From Opitutus sp. ER46 (GTDB lineage: Bacteria > Verrucomicrobiota > Verrucomicrobiia > Opitutales > Opitutaceae), in the NCBI RefSeq assembly GCF_003054705.1, contig NZ_QAYX01000020.1, positions 186,001-250,000 on the forward strand: a DNA stretch of 64,000 nt. The letters are read 5' to 3'. Both the position numbers and the translations under genes were made by a program. Positions 37,862 to 46,256 of this stretch are shown here, one piece after another. Below the pieces are notes generated by a model. It was not told the origin of the DNA. It did no database searches and worked only from the letters and a program-made list of their open reading frames with translations. Each line of letters begins with the position of its first letter. Within the stretch, counting starts at the first letter, position 1.

Positions 37862-38295
37862 AGGGCGGCACAGAAGAGCCGCAACGCTCGCTGAATCTCC
37901 GCCGAGCGCAAGCCGGCGCTTCCCCCCTCCTCCCAACCTACCAGCCACCAAACGATACAACGAACATCCAACCCCTGGTCCGCCCCGGAGGGCAGCATCC
38001 CGACGCCGCCAAAACCAGGACACCGAGCGAACGAGGACTACAATTATATCTCACCATTAACAGGTCACTTACGGGATAATGTCCAGATACTCGCCGCATA
38101 ATGTCCAGATACTCCGGGGGAAAATGTCCAGATACTCGGCCGGCGCTCCGCCCCTGGAGCGGGCCGGAGCCCGCCTCGACCTGCGGCGAACACGTACCCG
38201 GGCTTCGCCTCGCAGGCGTACCTTTCCCCACGCCCAGAGGTAAAATCCGGTCGCCACCCCCGCGCCAAACGCGCCGATCAGCCTTTCAGAGCATC
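37862..38295. other. intergenic region with atypical base composition
   Basis: These 434 bases separate the DUF2062 gene from the PAS kinase gene. The part from about 37940 to 38075 is lower in GC than the neighbourhood and holds no convincing ORF. A three-copy 15-bp direct repeat follows at 38078-38137. Confidence 0.5.
38078..38137 (+). repeat. three direct repeats AATGTCCAGATACTC
   Basis: Perfect 15-bp copies lie at 38078-38092, 38100-38114 and 38123-38137, that is 22 and 23 bases apart, about two helical turns. Multiple short terminal repeats of this kind are known at ends of IS21-type elements, and tandem operators look similar. No transposase gene is nearby, so this may be an element remnant or a binding-site array for the downstream kinase gene. 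Confidence 0.7.
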
Positions 38296-40056
38296 GTGCC
38301 GGATCGTTCCACCCAACCCCCGTTCCCTCCCGGAAGCGCCTTCGAGAGTCTGACGGCGCCCCCACCCCCGTCGGTCCTGGCCGGCATGATGGAGACCTTG
38401 CCCTGCCTCGCCGCCGTTTTTGCCAGCCCCGGCCTGGAGCTGACGTACGCAAACAGCTCGGCCCGCGCCCGCTTTCTCAATTCCGACGTCATCGACCTCG
38501 AGCGGGTGCACCTGTCCGACCTGATCGGGCTGGCCACGCTGCAGCGCCTCGAGTCCGAGATTCTCCCCCAGGCCAAAGTCCTCGGCCACTGGTCGGGCAA
38601 GTGCGAGTTTCGCGATGCCTGGGGCAGCGAGTTCAGCGCGACCGCCCTCTTCGCCAAATACCGCGTCGAAGGCAAAAGCTACGTCTCGCTCCTGGCCCAC
38701 CCTGCGCCCAACGCCGAGGTCACGACGAGCTTCACCGACCGCGAACTCCTCCGCGCGCTGCTCAACAACCTGCCCGATTCGATCTACTTCAAGGACTCCT
38801 CCAGCCGCTTCCTCCGCATCAGCCGCGCCCAAGCCGCCAAGCTGGGCCTCCGCGATCCCAACGCCGCCATCGGCAAAACCGACTTCGATTTCTTCGCAGC
38901 CCCGCACGCCAGCGCCGCGTTCGCCGACGAACACCGCATCCTCCAGACCGGCGAGCCCATTATCGACAAGGAGGAGAAGGAAACCTGGGACGACGGCCGC
39001 GTCGCCTGGGTCGCGACCACCAAGCTGCCGTTGCGCGACCAGGACGACAGGATCATCGGCACCTTCGGCATCTCCCGCGACATCACCGCCCGCAAGGCCG
39101 CCGAGGAGGCGCGCTGGAAGATGGAGGCGCAGCTCCAGCAGGCCTATAAGCTGGAATCGCTCGGGCGACTGGCCGCCGGCATCGCCCACGAGATCAACAC
39201 GCCCACCCAATACGTCGCCGACAACACCCGCTTCGCCATCGATGCATTCGCCAAGCTGCACGAGGTGATCGACGCGTATCGCGCCCTCCGGCAATCCCTC
39301 GCCGCCGCAACCGCGGCGCCAGCTCCGGACGCGAGGTACGCTGAGTCCGTCACGGCAGTCGCTGCCACCGAGGCGCGCGTCGAACTCGATTACCTTCTCG
39401 GCGAAATCCCGCATTGCCTGCAGCAGTCCCTCGATGGCCTCGCCCGCGTTGCCCAGATCGTCCGCTCGCTCAAGGAGTTCGCCCACCCGTACTCGCCCCA
39501 CCTGGAGCCCGCCAATCTCAACCGCACGATCGACACCGCCATCGCCGTCAGTCGGCACGAATGGAAATACGTCGCCGAAGTGGTGACCGAACTCGATCCG
39601 GATCTGCCCCCCGTGCCGTGTGTCGTCGATGAGATCAACCAGACCATGCTCAATCTCCTCGTCAACGCGGCCCACGCCGTCGAGGAGATGGCCAAGACGC
39701 GGCCGCAGTCCAAGGGCCGGATCACGGTGCGCAGCCGCAGGGAGGACGGCGTTGCCGTGATCGAGGTCGAGGACACCGGCACTGGCATCCCGGAATCGAT
39801 CCGCGACCACATTTTCGAGCCTTTCGTCACCACGAAGCCCGCCGGCAAGGGCACCGGTCAGGGCCTCGCAATTGTGCACACGTTTATCGTGAAGCACCAT
39901 CAGGGCACCATCGACGTAAAGACCGAGCTCGGCGTCGGCACGAAGTTCACCCTGCGCATCCCGCTCGTCGCCCCGCCCAGGGCCGACGCCCCACTCGCCA
40001 ACCCCGCGCCCGGCAGCGCCACCGCGCCCGTCACGCCCGTCACCCTCCACGCCTGA
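38296..40056 (+). CDS. PAS sensor histidine kinase
   Basis: This kinase is about 586 residues from a GTG start at 38296; an ATG at 38386 is the alternative. It has no transmembrane helix, so it is cytoplasmic. Two PAS domains (about 30-150 and 155-275; the second has DSIYFKDSSSRFLRIS) precede a HisKA-type helix with ESLGRLAAGIAHEINTPTQY, an insertion of about 60 Ala-rich residues, and a HATPase domain with NLLVNAAHAV, DTGTGIPESI and GTGQGLAIVH. The EINTP form is typical of kinases paired with REC-HD-GYP type regulators. The regulator starts 7 bases after its stop. Confidence 0.88.
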   Translation: MPDRSTQPPFPPGSAFESLTAPPPPSVLAGMMETLPCLAAVFASPGLELTYANSSARARFLNSDVIDLERVHLSDLIGLATLQRLESEILPQAKVLGHWSGKCEFRDAWGSEFSATALFAKYRVEGKSYVSLLAHPAPNAEVTTSFTDRELLRALLNNLPDSIYFKDSSSRFLRISRAQAAKLGLRDPNAAIGKTDFDFFAAPHASAAFADEHRILQTGEPIIDKEEKETWDDGRVAWVATTKLPLRDQDDRIIGTFGISRDITARKAAEEARWKMEAQLQQAYKLESLGRLAAGIAHEINTPTQYVADNTRFAIDAFAKLHEVIDAYRALRQSLAAATAAPAPDARYAESVTAVAATEARVELDYLLGEIPHCLQQSLDGLARVAQIVRSLKEFAHPYSPHLEPANLNRTIDTAIAVSRHEWKYVAEVVTELDPDLPPVPCVVDEINQTMLNLLVNAAHAVEEMAKTRPQSKGRITVRSRREDGVAVIEVEDTGTGIPESIRDHIFEPFVTTKPAGKGTGQGLAIVHTFIVKHHQGTIDVKTELGVGTKFTLRIPLVAPPRADAPLANPAPGSATAPVTPVTLHA

Positions 40057-40063
40057 TTCCGCC

Positions 40064-41257
40064 ATGGCCGCACCCGGCAAAATCCTCTTCGTCGACGACG
40101 ACCCGAATCTTCTCGCCGCGTTTCAGCGCAACCTGAGGAAGCAGTTCACGTTCGATACCGCCACCGGTGCCCTGGAGGCGCTGCAGATGCTCAAGACCCA
40201 GGGGCCCTACGCCCTGCTCGTCGTCGACATGCGCATGCCGGAGATGAATGGCGTCGAGTTCTTCGAGCGGGCCCGCGTCCTCGCCCCCGACGCCGTGCGC
40301 ATCATGCTCACCGGCAACGCCGACCAGCAGACCGTCGTCCACGCCGTGAACCGCGGCCAGGTGTTCCGGTTTCTCAACAAGCCGTGCCCGCCCGAGGTGC
40401 TCGTCCCGACGCTCGAGCACGGGCTCAAGCAATTCGAACTGCTCCGCATCGAGCGCGAACTCCTCGAAGGCACGCTGACCGGGGTCATCAACGTGCTGTC
40501 CGAAGTGCTGGGCATGGCCGCGCCCGAAGCCCTCGGCCGCGGCCAGCGCCTGCGCGACTCGATGCGCCGGTTCGCCGCCGCCGTCGACGCCTCGCCGCTC
40601 TGGGAGTTCGAGGTGGCCGCACTCCTGTCGTCGATCGGCTACGCCGCGTTTCCCAGCCGCCTGCTCCTCGACCTCAGCGCCGGGCAGGAACTCACGTTGC
40701 CCGAGGAGAAACTCCTCCGTTCCGCCCCGAAAATCGGCCACGACCTGCTCAATCGCATCCCGCGCCTCGAAGGCGTCGCCCGCGCCGTCCTTTACCAGCA
40801 CAAGAATTACGACGGCACCGGGTTTCCCCTCGACGACTGCCACGGGGACGAGATTCCCCTCGCCTCCCGGATGCTCCGCATCCTCGCCGATCGCCTCGTG
40901 CTCGAGAACGACGGCGTGGTGAAAGCGCCCGCCTACGAGGCGATGGCCGCCCGTCCCGGCCGTTACGATCCCGCCCTGCTCGACGCCTGCTTCGTCTGCT
41001 TCGACGCCTACCTCATGCAGCCGATCGCGGCAGACCGACCGGTCAAGATGCTGAACATCGACCAACTCATCGCCGGCCAGGTCGTCGTTTCCGACATTAC
41101 CACACATGACGGCATCGCCCTGATCAGCGCCGGCAATCACCTGACCGAGATGATGCTCGCCCGACTGCTGAATCATCGCGAACTCGGCGAAGTCAACGAA
41201 CCGGTCTGCGTGCAGGATCCGGGCCCCAGTTCCACCGCGTCCGCCCCGCCGCGCTGA
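40064..41257 (+). CDS. response regulator with degenerate HD-GYP-like output
   Basis: This is a 397-residue regulator. The receiver domain (1-125) has DDDP at the N-terminus, phospho-acceptor Asp in LVVDMRMPEMNG, and Lys in FLNKPCPP. The output region (about 130-330) aligns in style to HD-GYP phosphodiesterases: YQHKNYDGTGFP is the GYP-type motif. The metal-binding His-Asp pair, however, is replaced by Ser-Ser in ALLSSIGYAAFP. It is therefore probably not an active cyclic-di-GMP phosphodiesterase and may bind the nucleotide or another protein instead. The upstream PAS kinase (7-base gap) is the likely partner. Confidence 0.85.
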   Translation: MAAPGKILFVDDDPNLLAAFQRNLRKQFTFDTATGALEALQMLKTQGPYALLVVDMRMPEMNGVEFFERARVLAPDAVRIMLTGNADQQTVVHAVNRGQVFRFLNKPCPPEVLVPTLEHGLKQFELLRIERELLEGTLTGVINVLSEVLGMAAPEALGRGQRLRDSMRRFAAAVDASPLWEFEVAALLSSIGYAAFPSRLLLDLSAGQELTLPEEKLLRSAPKIGHDLLNRIPRLEGVARAVLYQHKNYDGTGFPLDDCHGDEIPLASRMLRILADRLVLENDGVVKAPAYEAMAARPGRYDPALLDACFVCFDAYLMQPIAADRPVKMLNIDQLIAGQVVVSDITTHDGIALISAGNHLTEMMLARLLNHRELGEVNEPVCVQDPGPSSTASAPPR

Positions 41258-41428: not shown

Positions 41429-42847
41429 TCACCGCAGCCAGCCTTTCACGATGAAGAAGTATAGCCCGGCGAGCATCCCGAACACCACGACGAAGGAGAC
41501 CTGCGGGAGCGTGAAGTGCCACGGGTTATCCATCAGGTTCATGCCCAGCAGACCGCCGATCACCGCCGGGATCAGCCCCAGCACGCTCACCACCGCCAGC
41601 ACGCGCATCACGCGGTTCATGTCGAACGACACCACGTTCAGATGCAGATCGATGACCGCGAGCAGGTCCTCCCGCGTGTTCACGACCGTTTCGTACAGGT
41701 AGTCCGCCGACGCTGCCAGCCGCGCCAGGGCCGCCCGGACCGCCTCACCCGCGCCCACCAGCGGCGTACGCTCGTCGGCCAGCTGCTGCAGCACGGCCTT
41801 CAGCCGCCAGAGGTCCCATTGCGCCGCCGACAGCTGCTTCTTCAGCCGGAAGGTCTGCTCGAAGAATGCCGGCCGGCTCTCGCGCAACGGAATGTCCTCC
41901 AACGCCCGCAATTGCTGCTCGAAGCCGCCCACGAGGACCTCGTTCTCCTGCACCACGCGTTGCAGCAGCGCCGCCGCCACGCGCAGCGGGAGCGGCTCAC
42001 CTTCCATCCCCGCCTCGCCCGCCGGCGCGCTCATCGTCTCCACCGCGGCCACGGGTGCCCGCGAGAAGGAAAGCACCCGGTTCGCCCAGAGCAGGATCAA
42101 CAGCGGTCGCCGCTCGATCGTGCCTTCACGCTTCTCCGCCTCCGGCACCCACAGGAAGATCGCAGTGCAGTCGCGCGCGCCCGCCACGTGCGGGTGCGTG
42201 GCCCCGGCCAAATGCGTATCCAGGAAACCCGCCGGCAAACCGGCGACCGCACCGATCTCACGCGCGTCGTCCCCACCGGGGTTGCTGACGTGAAACCACC
42301 CTGCGCCGCCCGCGCGCAACCAGTCCAGCAGTCCCTGCCGCGTCGCGGGCACGGCCTCGCCCAGTTCGCCACCGGTGCGGCGCGTGATCCGGGCCGGTCC
42401 CGCCGCCTCCACCGCCTCCGCCCCGCCGCGCTGTTGGCGAACCACGATTCCGCTCGCCCGCACCCCCAGCGTGAAGAGCCTCACCAGCCGCGCCAGGCGC
42501 AACACCGGCGACGACCGCACCAGGTCCGAGACCGAGGGCAGCGCCGAGGCGAGCGGGATTACGATCGTCGCAAGATCGATCCAGCGCCAGGCATCGCACA
42601 AGAAGGCCCGCTTCGACGGCGCACTCGCCAGCGCCACGACGTATTCCACCGCAAACCACGCCACGATCGCCCACTGCGCCAGTTCGATCCCGCGCTCAGC
42701 CGGCGGCGACACGTCAAACAGCATCGGAAAGAGCGTCAGCGCGGCCGACATCAGCGCGAGGAAGCCCAGCAGCGCCTCGCCCAATAGGACGCGCGTCAGC
42801 CGCTGCGTCCAACCTGCGGTGCCAAATCGGAAGTCAGTTCCAATCAT
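41429..42847 (-). CDS. voltage-sensor domain fused to CorA-family channel
   Basis: This is a 472-residue membrane protein. The first 135 residues look like a voltage-sensor domain. S1 is at 20-44 and S2 at 55-75 with Glu68. A conserved turn PSKRAF and S3 with Asp91 in WIDLATIVIP follow. S4 is RSSPVLRLARLVRLFTL with Arg117, Arg120 and Arg123 at three-residue spacing. From about 155 to 400 it has the CorA cytoplasmic funnel, then two C-terminal helices with the CorA/ZntB selectivity motif GMN at 435-437 (GLLGMNLMDNPWHF). CorA moves Mg2+, Co2+ or Zn2+. Normal CorA has no voltage sensor. Start ATG 42847; GTG 42877 is possible. It is divergent from the next kinase gene. Confidence 0.85.
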   Translation of the reverse strand: MIGTDFRFGTAGWTQRLTRVLLGEALLGFLALMSAALTLFPMLFDVSPPAERGIELAQWAIVAWFAVEYVVALASAPSKRAFLCDAWRWIDLATIVIPLASALPSVSDLVRSSPVLRLARLVRLFTLGVRASGIVVRQQRGGAEAVEAAGPARITRRTGGELGEAVPATRQGLLDWLRAGGAGWFHVSNPGGDDAREIGAVAGLPAGFLDTHLAGATHPHVAGARDCTAIFLWVPEAEKREGTIERRPLLILLWANRVLSFSRAPVAAVETMSAPAGEAGMEGEPLPLRVAAALLQRVVQENEVLVGGFEQQLRALEDIPLRESRPAFFEQTFRLKKQLSAAQWDLWRLKAVLQQLADERTPLVGAGEAVRAALARLAASADYLYETVVNTREDLLAVIDLHLNVVSFDMNRVMRVLAVVSVLGLIPAVIGGLLGMNLMDNPWHFTLPQVSFVVVFGMLAGLYFFIVKGWLR

Positions 42848-43193
42848 GGTCAGAAAGAGTTCTGCCCACTCAACACCCACTTGGGAACCGTGTGAAAGGG
42901 AAAGTGAGACGGGGATTGAGCATACGAATCCATATCGCTCCAGACTCCAAGCACTAGCGCGAATCGACCCCGGAATTGTCCGGACACCAACCACGGACTC
43001 GTCCTGGTGTGCATCCGAGACTCCGGGACGCTCCACTCTCGTTCTTCCGAGCCTTCCGCTTCCCCACGCCTGCGGCAGACCGCCCCCGGGCCGTCGGATT
43101 GCGTACGTGTTTTCGCTCCAGCTTTTGTCGCCAGTAATGTTGCGTCGCCTGCGCGCGTTGCCAGCGTGCGATTCCCCCGAACGGCCCCCCCGC
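42848..43193. other. divergent intergenic region
   Basis: These 346 bases separate the CorA-like gene from the DUF4118 kinase and must carry both promoters. I see one isolated copy of the GGGATTGA octamer and no hairpin or clear promoter boxes. Confidence 0.4.
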
Positions 43194-46100
43194 ATGAGCC
43201 GCGCCTTCTCTTCTCACGGACCGCTCGTCCAATCCGTCGCGCTACGTTACGTGTTCGCCTTCGCGGTCACGGCCACGACCGTCGCGGCTCGGTTATCGAT
43301 CATCCCTTGGGTAGGAAACCGGGCGATTCTGATTCTCTTTGTCATCCCAATCACCCTGGCCGCCTGGGTCGGCGGAAGTGGGCCCGGGCTCCTCGCCACA
43401 GTGATGGCCGCGACGGCCGCCAGCTTCTACCTGCTCGAGCCAACCGGCAGCTTTGCCGTCCGCCATCTGGCGGATATCGCGCAACTCGCCACCCTGGCCG
43501 GCGCCGGCGCGATGATCACGTTCCTCATCGCCAACCTCCGCCTCGAACGCCGCCGCACGGCTGAAAGCCTCGCCGCCCTCGAACGCGCCACTGAGCACCG
43601 CGAGCGACTGGCCGCCATCGTTGGCTGTTCGAATGACGCCATCATCGGCAAGGATCTCGATGGCGTGATCACAAGCTGGAATCGCGGGGCCGAGCGGCTG
43701 TTCGGCTACACCGAGGCCGAGGCCGTGGGCCAATCGATCCAGCTCATCATTCCCCTCGAGTCACTCGCCGACGAGGCCAGCATGTTCACGCATATCCGGC
43801 GCGGCGAATCCGCCAGCCGCGTGCGCACCAAGCGCCGCTGCAAGGATGGGCGCACCATCAACGTTTCGGTCACACTCTCTCCGATCCGCAACCGACAGGG
43901 CCAGCTCGTCGGCGCCGCCAACATCACCCACGACATCACCGACCAGATCCGCGCCGAGGAACAGTTGCGGTTTCAGGAATCGATCCTGCGCGAGACCGGC
44001 CACATCGCCAAGGTGGGCGGTTGGCATTTCGACGCCCGCACTGGCGAGGGTTATTGGACCGAGGAAGTTGCCCGCATCCATGACCTGCCACCCGGGGCAC
44101 CGATATCGATGGCTCAGGGGCTCAGCTACTACTCAGGCGAAGACCGCCTGCGTATCGAAGCCGCCATTCGGGCCGCCATCGAGGAAGGAAAGCCCTACGA
44201 TCTCGAACTGCAGATCACCACGGCCGCGAACCGGCAGAAATGGGTCCGGACCATAGGGCACGCCCTGGCCGAAAACGGCCAGGTCGTTTGCGTGCGAGGC
44301 TCGTTCCAGGACATCACCGAGCGGAAGCAGATGGAGCTTGCGTTGCGGGAAAGCGAGCAGCGCTTCGCCACCGCGTTTCGCGCCAGCCCCGCCGCCATCG
44401 CGATCAGTCGGCGGAGTGACCGAACGCTCATGGAGGTCAACGACTCCTTCCTCCGGCTCTTCGGCTGCACCCACGACGAGATCATCGGCCACACGCTCGC
44501 CGAGCTTGGCCTGCTCGACGGCGCCACCATCGACCTCCTGCGCCGCCAACTCGACGCCACCGGCGAAGCTCGCGATGTCGAAGTCACGGTGCGCACCCGC
44601 GCCGGCGCCGCCCGCCACGTGAGCGCGTCGGTCAAGGTCATCACCTTGGGCGGCGAGGCGTGCGCCCTTTCGCTGCTGTTCGACGTCACCGCCCGCCGCG
44701 AGGCCGAGCATTCGCTGCGCGCCAGCGAGGAACGCTTCCGCCAGGTGGTCGAGTCGATCAGCGAGGTGTTTTGGATGACCACGCTCGAGGGGCGGGAAAT
44801 GCTCTACATCAGTCCCGGCTTCGAACGGATCTGGGGCCGCTCGTGCGAGAGCCTCTACGCCCAGCCTGAATCCTGGATCGAGAGCATCCATCCCGCAGAC
44901 CGCCCCCGCGTCGTCGAGGCCGCCGCGACCAAGCAGGCCGCCGGCACCTTCGACGAAACCTACCGCATCCAGCGACCCGATGGCACCGTGCGCTGGATTC
45001 ATGACCGCGCGTTCCCCATCGCCGACGAACACGGCAGGGTCCATCGCATCGTCGGCGTCGCCGAGGACATCACCGATCGCAAGACGCTCGAAAGCCAGTT
45101 CCTGCGGTCGCAGCGCATCGAGGCAATCGGCACGCTCTCCAGCGGTATCGCCCACGATCTGAACAACATCCTCGCGCCGGCCCTGATGCTCGGGCCCGCG
45201 CTCCGCTCCAAGCTCACCAGCCCCGACGACCTCGCGTTGCTCGACATCGTGGAACGCGGTGCCCTGCGCGGCGCCAGCATCATCCGTCAATTGCTCACCT
45301 TCAGTCGAGGCATCGAGGGCCAGCGCGGCCTCGTCAACGCCCGCCATCTCCTCCGCGAGATGGCCGGCATCATGCGCGAGACGTTTCCCCGCGACATCAC
45401 CGTCGCCGAACACGCCCCTGCCGACCTCTGGCCGGTCACGGGCGACGCCACGCAGCTTCACCAGGTCCTGATGAATCTCACCGTGAACGCCCGGGACGCC
45501 ATGCCCAACGGCGGCAAGCTGACGCTCACCGCCGAGAACACCCTGCTGGAGGCCGGCGGGTTCACCGTCCACGTCAAGGGCAAGCCCGGCCCCTACGTTC
45601 TCCTCACCGTCGCCGACACCGGCGCCGGCATTCCCCAGGGCGACCTCGACCGGATTTTTGAGCCCTTCTACACGACCAAGGACGTCGGCAAGGGCACGGG
45701 CCTCGGCCTCTCCACCGTGCTCGGGATCGTCAAGAGCCACGAGGGCTTCGTGACGGTGTACAGCGAGCTTGGCCGCGGCAGCGTCTTCAAGGTCTACCTC
45801 CCGGCCGCGCCCCAGGCCACCGAGACCACGGCGTCCGCGCCAGACTCCATTCCCCGCGGGCGCGGCGAACTCGTCCTCGTGGTCGACGACGAGGCCGCCA
45901 TTCGCCTCACCCTCCAGCGCCTGCTGGAAATGCACGGCTACGAGGTGGCGGTCGCCGCCAACGGCAACGAGGGCGTCGCGACTTTCCTTGCCCAGCGCGA
46001 GCGCGTGCAGGCGCTGATCACCGACATCATGATGCCCGAGATGAACGGCGTCGTCCTCATTCGAGCCCTCCGCGCCCTCGAGCCCAACCTCAAGGTGATC

Positions 46101-46256
46101 GCCATGAGTGGTCTGCAGGACACGGTCCGCCGCGACGAACTCAGCCAGCTCGGCGTGACCGAGATTCTCAGCAAGCCCGCCCTGCCCCGCCACATTCTCG
46201 AGGCCTTGCACCGGCAGCTCGCGCCGCCCGCCGCATCGGTGCCGCCCAGCAGCTGA
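43194..46256 (+). CDS. DUF4118/multi-PAS hybrid histidine kinase with receiver
   Basis: This is a 1020-residue kinase. Four transmembrane helices (about 15-115) with the KdpD-like DUF4118 pattern (WVGNRAILILFVIPITLAAW) precede four PAS domains (about 138-260, 265-385, 390-505 and 510-640). The first PAS has the IVGCSNDAIIGKDLDGVI start. The HisKA helix IEAIGTLSSGIAHDLNNIL (about 645-665) and HATPase (about 750-870) follow. A C-terminal receiver (about 890-1010) has Asp in ITDIMMPEMNG. DUF4118 is a membrane anchor of unknown ligand. Start ATG 43194; an ATG at 43137 is also open. Confidence 0.9.
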   Translation: MSRAFSSHGPLVQSVALRYVFAFAVTATTVAARLSIIPWVGNRAILILFVIPITLAAWVGGSGPGLLATVMAATAASFYLLEPTGSFAVRHLADIAQLATLAGAGAMITFLIANLRLERRRTAESLAALERATEHRERLAAIVGCSNDAIIGKDLDGVITSWNRGAERLFGYTEAEAVGQSIQLIIPLESLADEASMFTHIRRGESASRVRTKRRCKDGRTINVSVTLSPIRNRQGQLVGAANITHDITDQIRAEEQLRFQESILRETGHIAKVGGWHFDARTGEGYWTEEVARIHDLPPGAPISMAQGLSYYSGEDRLRIEAAIRAAIEEGKPYDLELQITTAANRQKWVRTIGHALAENGQVVCVRGSFQDITERKQMELALRESEQRFATAFRASPAAIAISRRSDRTLMEVNDSFLRLFGCTHDEIIGHTLAELGLLDGATIDLLRRQLDATGEARDVEVTVRTRAGAARHVSASVKVITLGGEACALSLLFDVTARREAEHSLRASEERFRQVVESISEVFWMTTLEGREMLYISPGFERIWGRSCESLYAQPESWIESIHPADRPRVVEAAATKQAAGTFDETYRIQRPDGTVRWIHDRAFPIADEHGRVHRIVGVAEDITDRKTLESQFLRSQRIEAIGTLSSGIAHDLNNILAPALMLGPALRSKLTSPDDLALLDIVERGALRGASIIRQLLTFSRGIEGQRGLVNARHLLREMAGIMRETFPRDITVAEHAPADLWPVTGDATQLHQVLMNLTVNARDAMPNGGKLTLTAENTLLEAGGFTVHVKGKPGPYVLLTVADTGAGIPQGDLDRIFEPFYTTKDVGKGTGLGLSTVLGIVKSHEGFVTVYSELGRGSVFKVYLPAAPQATETTASAPDSIPRGRGELVLVVDDEAAIRLTLQRLLEMHGYEVAVAANGNEGVATFLAQRERVQALITDIMMPEMNGVVLIRALRALEPNLKVIAMSGLQDTVRRDELSQLGVTEILSKPALPRHILEALHRQLAPPAASVPPSS

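Follow-up and report, generated by a model that had tools for sequence, protein, structure and literature searches.

The locus described here raises the question of whether a bacterial CorA channel can carry a voltage sensor of its own and, if so, which signal opens its pore. It lies in a 64,000-nucleotide stretch of DNA from Opitutus sp. ER46 (hereafter the window), in which an initial annotation had proposed, at positions 41429-42847, a voltage-sensor domain (VSD) joined to a full CorA funnel with a GMN selectivity motif. This interval is exactly one open reading frame (ORF) on the minus strand, which had been left unstated, with an ATG start at 42847 and a stop codon ending at 41429; it encodes 472 amino acids, in whose translation the residue numbers given for E68, PSKRAF, D91, R117, R120 and R123 are correct. 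Pfam searches found both of the expected domains in the same protein, each above its cut-off: Ion_trans (PF00520; 33.9 bits against a cut-off of 25, E 2.5e-8) over residues 41-131, and CorA (PF01544; 104.8 bits against 27, E 6.8e-30) over residues 184-468. The CorA match spans profile positions 6-291 of 292, and is therefore to the whole domain, as had been claimed. The NCBIfam equivalog for CorA, TIGR00383, is matched only weakly (70.6 bits, below the cut-off of 200.75), which indicates that the window fusion is not an ordinary CorA. Together with the homologues and the CorA-fold model presented below, these profile searches support the presence of an S1-S4 module and a complete CorA with GMN in one protein. 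The opposite strand carries an antisense ORF of 423 amino acids (41516-42787, plus strand), which appears to be a by-product of high G+C.

With the N-terminal part as query, the phylum yielded two further full-length fusions, L012 from genome G380 (470 amino acids, 36% identity to the window fusion) and L013 from genome G545 (471 amino acids, 26% identity). Pfam detects both domains in L012 (Ion_trans 30.0 bits); in L013 CorA is clear and Ion_trans, at 15.1 bits, falls under the cut-off of 25. Profile searches with the three fusions added no further ones, such proteins occurring in 3 of the 387 phylum genomes sampled and in 2 of 384 genomes of the class; the corresponding figures were 1 of 197 for the class of G380 and 2 of 312 in a draw centred on G545. 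When the window protein was the sole query, 1 of 273 genomes of the order and 1 of 27 of the genus contained a fusion, the other 26 genomes of the genus containing none; these draws overlap. 

Exact 8-residue peptide patterns of the window protein, searched in 84,980 species genomes, retrieved just an ordinary CorA; such patterns reach close relatives only, so fusions may also exist outside the phylum. Among plasmids the window protein had no match and L012 gave CorA-only matches; L012 had no match in phages, the fusion had none in viral contigs, and VSD sequences sought in viral contigs were not found. Six IMG/VR viral contigs (L044, L045, L046, L047, L048 and L050) encode ordinary CorA-like proteins of 306-348 amino acids without a voltage sensor, three of them nearly identical and with a PEL loop. 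In a tree, the CorA domains of the three fusions form one clade with support of 100/100 and long branches, which fits a single origin followed by loss or transfer.

This rare and patchy distribution (3/387 phylum genomes, none of the other 26 of the genus) is what might be expected of a non-functional or chance fusion, or of an error of assembly or annotation. We nevertheless regard such an explanation as hardly credible, as the three deeply diverged genomes share the same fusion junction in reading frames that are open and free of internal stops. An artefact of assembly or annotation in particular can be ruled out, because the same full-length fusion is found in two other, deeply diverged genomes.

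The gene neighbourhoods of the three fusion loci differ and have nothing in common, and neither a Mg2+ riboswitch nor any other Rfam RNA was found near the fusion gene. In the window, 38101-41257 (plus strand) encodes a PAS histidine kinase and, after it, an HD_5-domain response regulator (40064-41257) that is convergent with the fusion gene. The divergent neighbour (ORF 42375-46256, plus strand) encodes a hybrid histidine kinase that combines several PAS domains with a receiver domain and DUF4118, a KdpD-type membrane sensor domain. This ORF overlaps the fusion gene, so its listed start is probably too far upstream and the true start probably lies near 43200. Flanked by a convergent response regulator and a divergent hybrid kinase, the fusion gene probably stands alone. 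The fusion gene of G545 (12416-13831 of L041) adjoins a squalene-hopene cyclase gene.

The N-terminal part resembles the sensor of genuine voltage-gated channels. A profile built from the VSDs of the three fusions matched NavRh (4dxw, E 1.7e-6) and Kv4.2/4.3 (E about 1e-4; Kv4.2 9.5e-5) in the PDB, and hhalign against K+ channels from the same phylum gave a probability of 95% (E 1.8e-8). No other Ion_trans protein was found in the window genome. Four helices can be delimited, all encoded on the minus strand: S1 (residues 22-44, 42716-42784), from a hydropathy peak at 26-44 and a helix at 10-44 in a low-confidence model; S2 (residues 50-75, 42623-42700), which carries F65-x-x-E68, from alignment, hydropathy and the model; S3 (residues 87-104, 42536-42589), with D91, from alignments and hydropathy; and S4 (residues 114-131, 42455-42508), from alignments. 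An S2 aromatic and acid together with an S3 Asp constitute the charge-transfer centre of voltage sensors (PMC13095418), and this centre (F65-x-x-E68 and D91) is kept in all three fusions. When these were aligned with L014 and L016, two genuine K+ channels of the phylum picked by a TVGYGD filter, F65, E68, Y69, D91, I95 and R120 were invariant. The spacing from E68 to D91 is 23 residues, the same as between the equivalent E and D of Shaker-type channels.

The initial annotation had further read R117, R120 and R123, spaced by three, as the charges of S4, and had named their conservation in homologues as a test. This held in part: all three arginines are kept in the 36%-identical L012 and they align with three S4 charges of the K+ channel L014, whilst the 26%-identical L013 has H, R and P at these positions, leaving only R120 invariant among the three fusions. 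With such an S4, and with Ion_trans under the cut-off, voltage sensing may be weak or lost in L013. The channel superfamily includes many voltage-insensitive members with voltage-sensor-like domains, and S1-S4 could likewise be a structural or ligand-binding collar, or a membrane anchor, on CorA. The window fusion has only three S4 charges, which would suit such a role, as would the single Arg and His of L013 and its low Ion_trans score. We consider it unlikely, though deserving of some weight, since F65, E68 and D91 are invariant at an overall identity of 26-36%, R117/R120/R123 are kept in L012, and the window fusion and L012 resemble each other far more in the VSD than in the CorA cytoplasmic domain.

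S4 is followed by a variable linker to the CorA cytoplasmic domain (residues 132-149, 42401-42454, minus strand), delimited by its low identity to the homologues. A lone VSD can conduct protons, as in Hv1 (PMC13095418), and the two modules might therefore work independently, the VSD leaking protons or serving as an Hv1-like path and the CorA pore opening without voltage control. This is quite improbable in our judgement; the stretch between S4 and CorA is short, about 20-30 residues in all three fusions, which is compatible with coupling.

In the CorA part the pore has been retained. A search of PDB profiles matched this part of the fusions to T. maritima CorA (TmCorA) with an E of 4e-22, followed by CmaX (1e-6) and ZntB (1.5e-5). 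The cytoplasmic alpha/beta domain (residues 150-285, 41993-42400, minus strand) was delimited from the PDB profile alignment, a site table and the fold match, and the stalk helices with TM1 (residues 286-435, 41543-41992) from the first two of these. The GMN motif (G435-M436-N437, 41537-41545) was located by alignments, as was TM2 (residues 446-467, 41447-41512), also marked by hydropathy and the model and followed by a C-terminal KGWLR. Hydropathy peaks at 416-434 and 449-467 correspond to the two C-terminal TM helices. GMN is invariant in the three fusions, and all three keep the TmCorA pore residues N288, M291 and L294 (N411, M414 and L417 in the window fusion); mutation of N288 impairs transport in TmCorA (PMC3629940). 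The fusions lack the polar TM1 residues T295 and T299 of TmCorA, so their ion specificity or preference may differ.

The Mg2+-sensing residues, on the other hand, have gone. The site table aligned the fusions to TmCorA via the PDB profile, together with unfused CorAs of the phylum. In TmCorA, D89 and D253 form a cytosolic metal site (PMC3629940). This intersubunit Mg2+ site (M1/M2) is missing from all three fusions: in the order window, L012, L013, the D89 position reads T/T/S (T211 in the window fusion) and the D253 position R/V/L (R376). Likewise D175 is replaced by Q/K/K (Q296) and D179 by Q/R/A (Q300), and the MPEL sequence after GMN is absent, the window fusion reading GMNLMDNPWHF and the E320 column being a gap in all three. 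In a sample of 19 unfused CorAs from the phylum, chosen for their similarity to the fusions and so not a census, E320 of MPEL, D175 and D179 are kept in 19/19 and D89 in all that include the N-terminus, while D253 has a single exception, L032, with N. ZntB and E. coli CorA, considered as outgroups, were left out of the evidence because their N-terminal alignment is unstable, with the D89 column shifting between alignments. TmCorA mutants without the M1 aspartates are still able to close, according to Kowatz and Maguire (2019) as described in PMC8865849. Since TmCorA does not strictly require the M1 site for closing, the loss of the aspartates points to a change of gate without proving one. It was originally supposed that membrane potential would act in addition to Mg2+; regulation by membrane potential is plausible, and with the canonical Mg2+-sensor aspartates gone it would probably be better described as acting instead of cytosolic Mg2+.

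The distribution of conservation along the protein is consistent with such a change. The window fusion and L012 are 68% identical in TM1-TM2 and 46% in the VSD, against 29% in the stalk, 26% in the linker and 21% in the cytoplasmic domain; with L013 the identity is 27% in the VSD, 13% in the linker, 22% in the cytoplasmic domain and 42% in the TM region (linker values computed over residues 132-158). Pairs of unfused CorAs with 60-70% TM identity have cytoplasmic domains that are on average 46.7% identical, with a minimum of 21.8%, and the window/L012 pair, at 20.2% in this comparison, thus lies below the minimum of unfused pairs at comparable TM identity. Sensor and pore would appear to be held whilst the formerly Mg2+-sensing domain drifts, the pattern expected if control passed from Mg2+ to the VSD, as judged from one pair of sequences and less clearly in L013.

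Ordinary CorAs accompany the fusion in two of the genomes, one in the window genome and two in G380, so that the fusion could serve as a regulatory subunit, entering mixed pentamers with ordinary CorA and lending them voltage sensitivity. This is improbable: in G545, which has no ordinary CorA, the fusion is the sole CorA, and the fusions keep a complete pore and a cytoplasmic domain strongly diverged from that of ordinary CorA.

Structure prediction from the single sequence gave a poor model (pLDDT 49). A second model, built with seven CorA rows and none from the fusion homologues, reached a pLDDT of about 70-95 over most of residues 170-430 and matched TmCorA with a Z of about 25 over 326 residues (model residues 138-471), in keeping with the CorA fold first proposed. 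Its N-terminal part contains helices at 10-44, 50-75, 78-101 and 114-131, all at pLDDT under 50, too low a confidence to speak for or against the four-helix packing that the initial annotation had named as a test. Fold searches listed no VSD, but CorA structures filled their lists, so that this has no bearing on the N-terminal part. The topology of the two modules would agree, the VSD ending in the cytoplasm after S4, where the N-terminal domain of CorA must lie.

On balance, we therefore favour, with modest confidence, a CorA-type cation channel in which membrane potential has taken over gating from cytosolic Mg2+. The sequences themselves show the two domains, the charge-transfer centre, the retained pore and the loss of the Mg2+ site; control by voltage is inferred. 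The fusion would be a cation channel of the 2-TM-GxN (CorA) superfamily, presumably pentameric like the rest of the CorA family, with an N-terminal S1-S4 sensor on each subunit that probably derives from a 6-TM voltage-gated channel whose pore CorA replaced. S4 would move with membrane potential, and its cytoplasmic end may pull or push, via the short linker, on the CorA cytoplasmic domain and the stalk/TM1 helix. Intersubunit Mg2+ would thereby give way to voltage as the signal to open and close, with voltage setting the open probability of the pore, through which Mg2+ or another divalent cation would presumably pass. The polarity is a guess: opening may be more likely at negative potential, since divalent influx would depolarise the membrane and so close the channel by negative feedback.

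If true, five sensors would control a non-tetrameric pore in a voltage-gated channel for divalent cations, directly linking bacterial membrane potential with divalent-cation uptake. Voltage sensors are familiar from tetrameric cation channels, stand-alone proton channels, phosphatases and one exchanger (PMC13095418, PMC10620092). The presence of a VSD on a pentameric CorA pore would demonstrate that it can plug onto an unrelated pore of different symmetry, and would offer a natural experiment in the passage of a channel from ligand gating to voltage gating. Whether the fusions represent a new class of channel, with a pentameric CorA pore under the control of a Kv/Nav-type sensor, the ancestral Mg2+ gate dismantled and control shifted from ligand to voltage, is in our view evenly balanced.

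The initial annotation knew of no characterised example, and our literature search, whose scope left aside preprints and most subscription journals, likewise retrieved no described VSD-CorA protein. The voltage-sensor proteins named in a 2024 review are channels, proton channels, phosphatases and SLC9C1, with CorA absent (PMC13095418). Both modules are known; what appears undescribed is their union in one protein together with the missing Mg2+ site, although the architecture may already figure in domain databases, uncommented. Among relatives of the pore, ZntB and CmaX (2-TM-GxN) share the fold (model Z 20.9 and 22.0) but have no VSD, and the fusion is closer to CorA in sequence. Voltage-sensing phosphatases, known to our knowledge from eukaryotes, differ from the fusion in having an enzyme as effector rather than a channel. 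They resemble it in their N-terminal VSD, short linker and cytoplasmic effector domain (PMC13095418). The voltage-gated Na+/H+ exchanger SLC9C1, described as the sole known transporter regulated by VSDs, likewise joins a VSD to an unrelated transport domain (PMC10620092). Unlike the fusion, however, it is a dimeric animal sperm protein with another transport fold and a cyclic-nucleotide domain, and its VSD is placed between these two domains, whereas that of the fusion is N-terminal. With 6-TM voltage-gated cation channels (NavRh, Kv4.2, L014, L016) the fusion shares FxxE in S2, D in S3 and Arg at every third S4 position, with three arginines in the window fusion against about five charges in L014, but it has CorA in place of the S5-S6 tetrameric pore. 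Finally, it shares with T. maritima CorA (PDB 2iub/3jcf) the cytoplasmic alpha/beta domain, the stalk, two TM helices, GMN and N288/M291/L294, and departs from it in the N-terminal VSD and in lacking D89/D253/D175/D179 and the MPEL loop.
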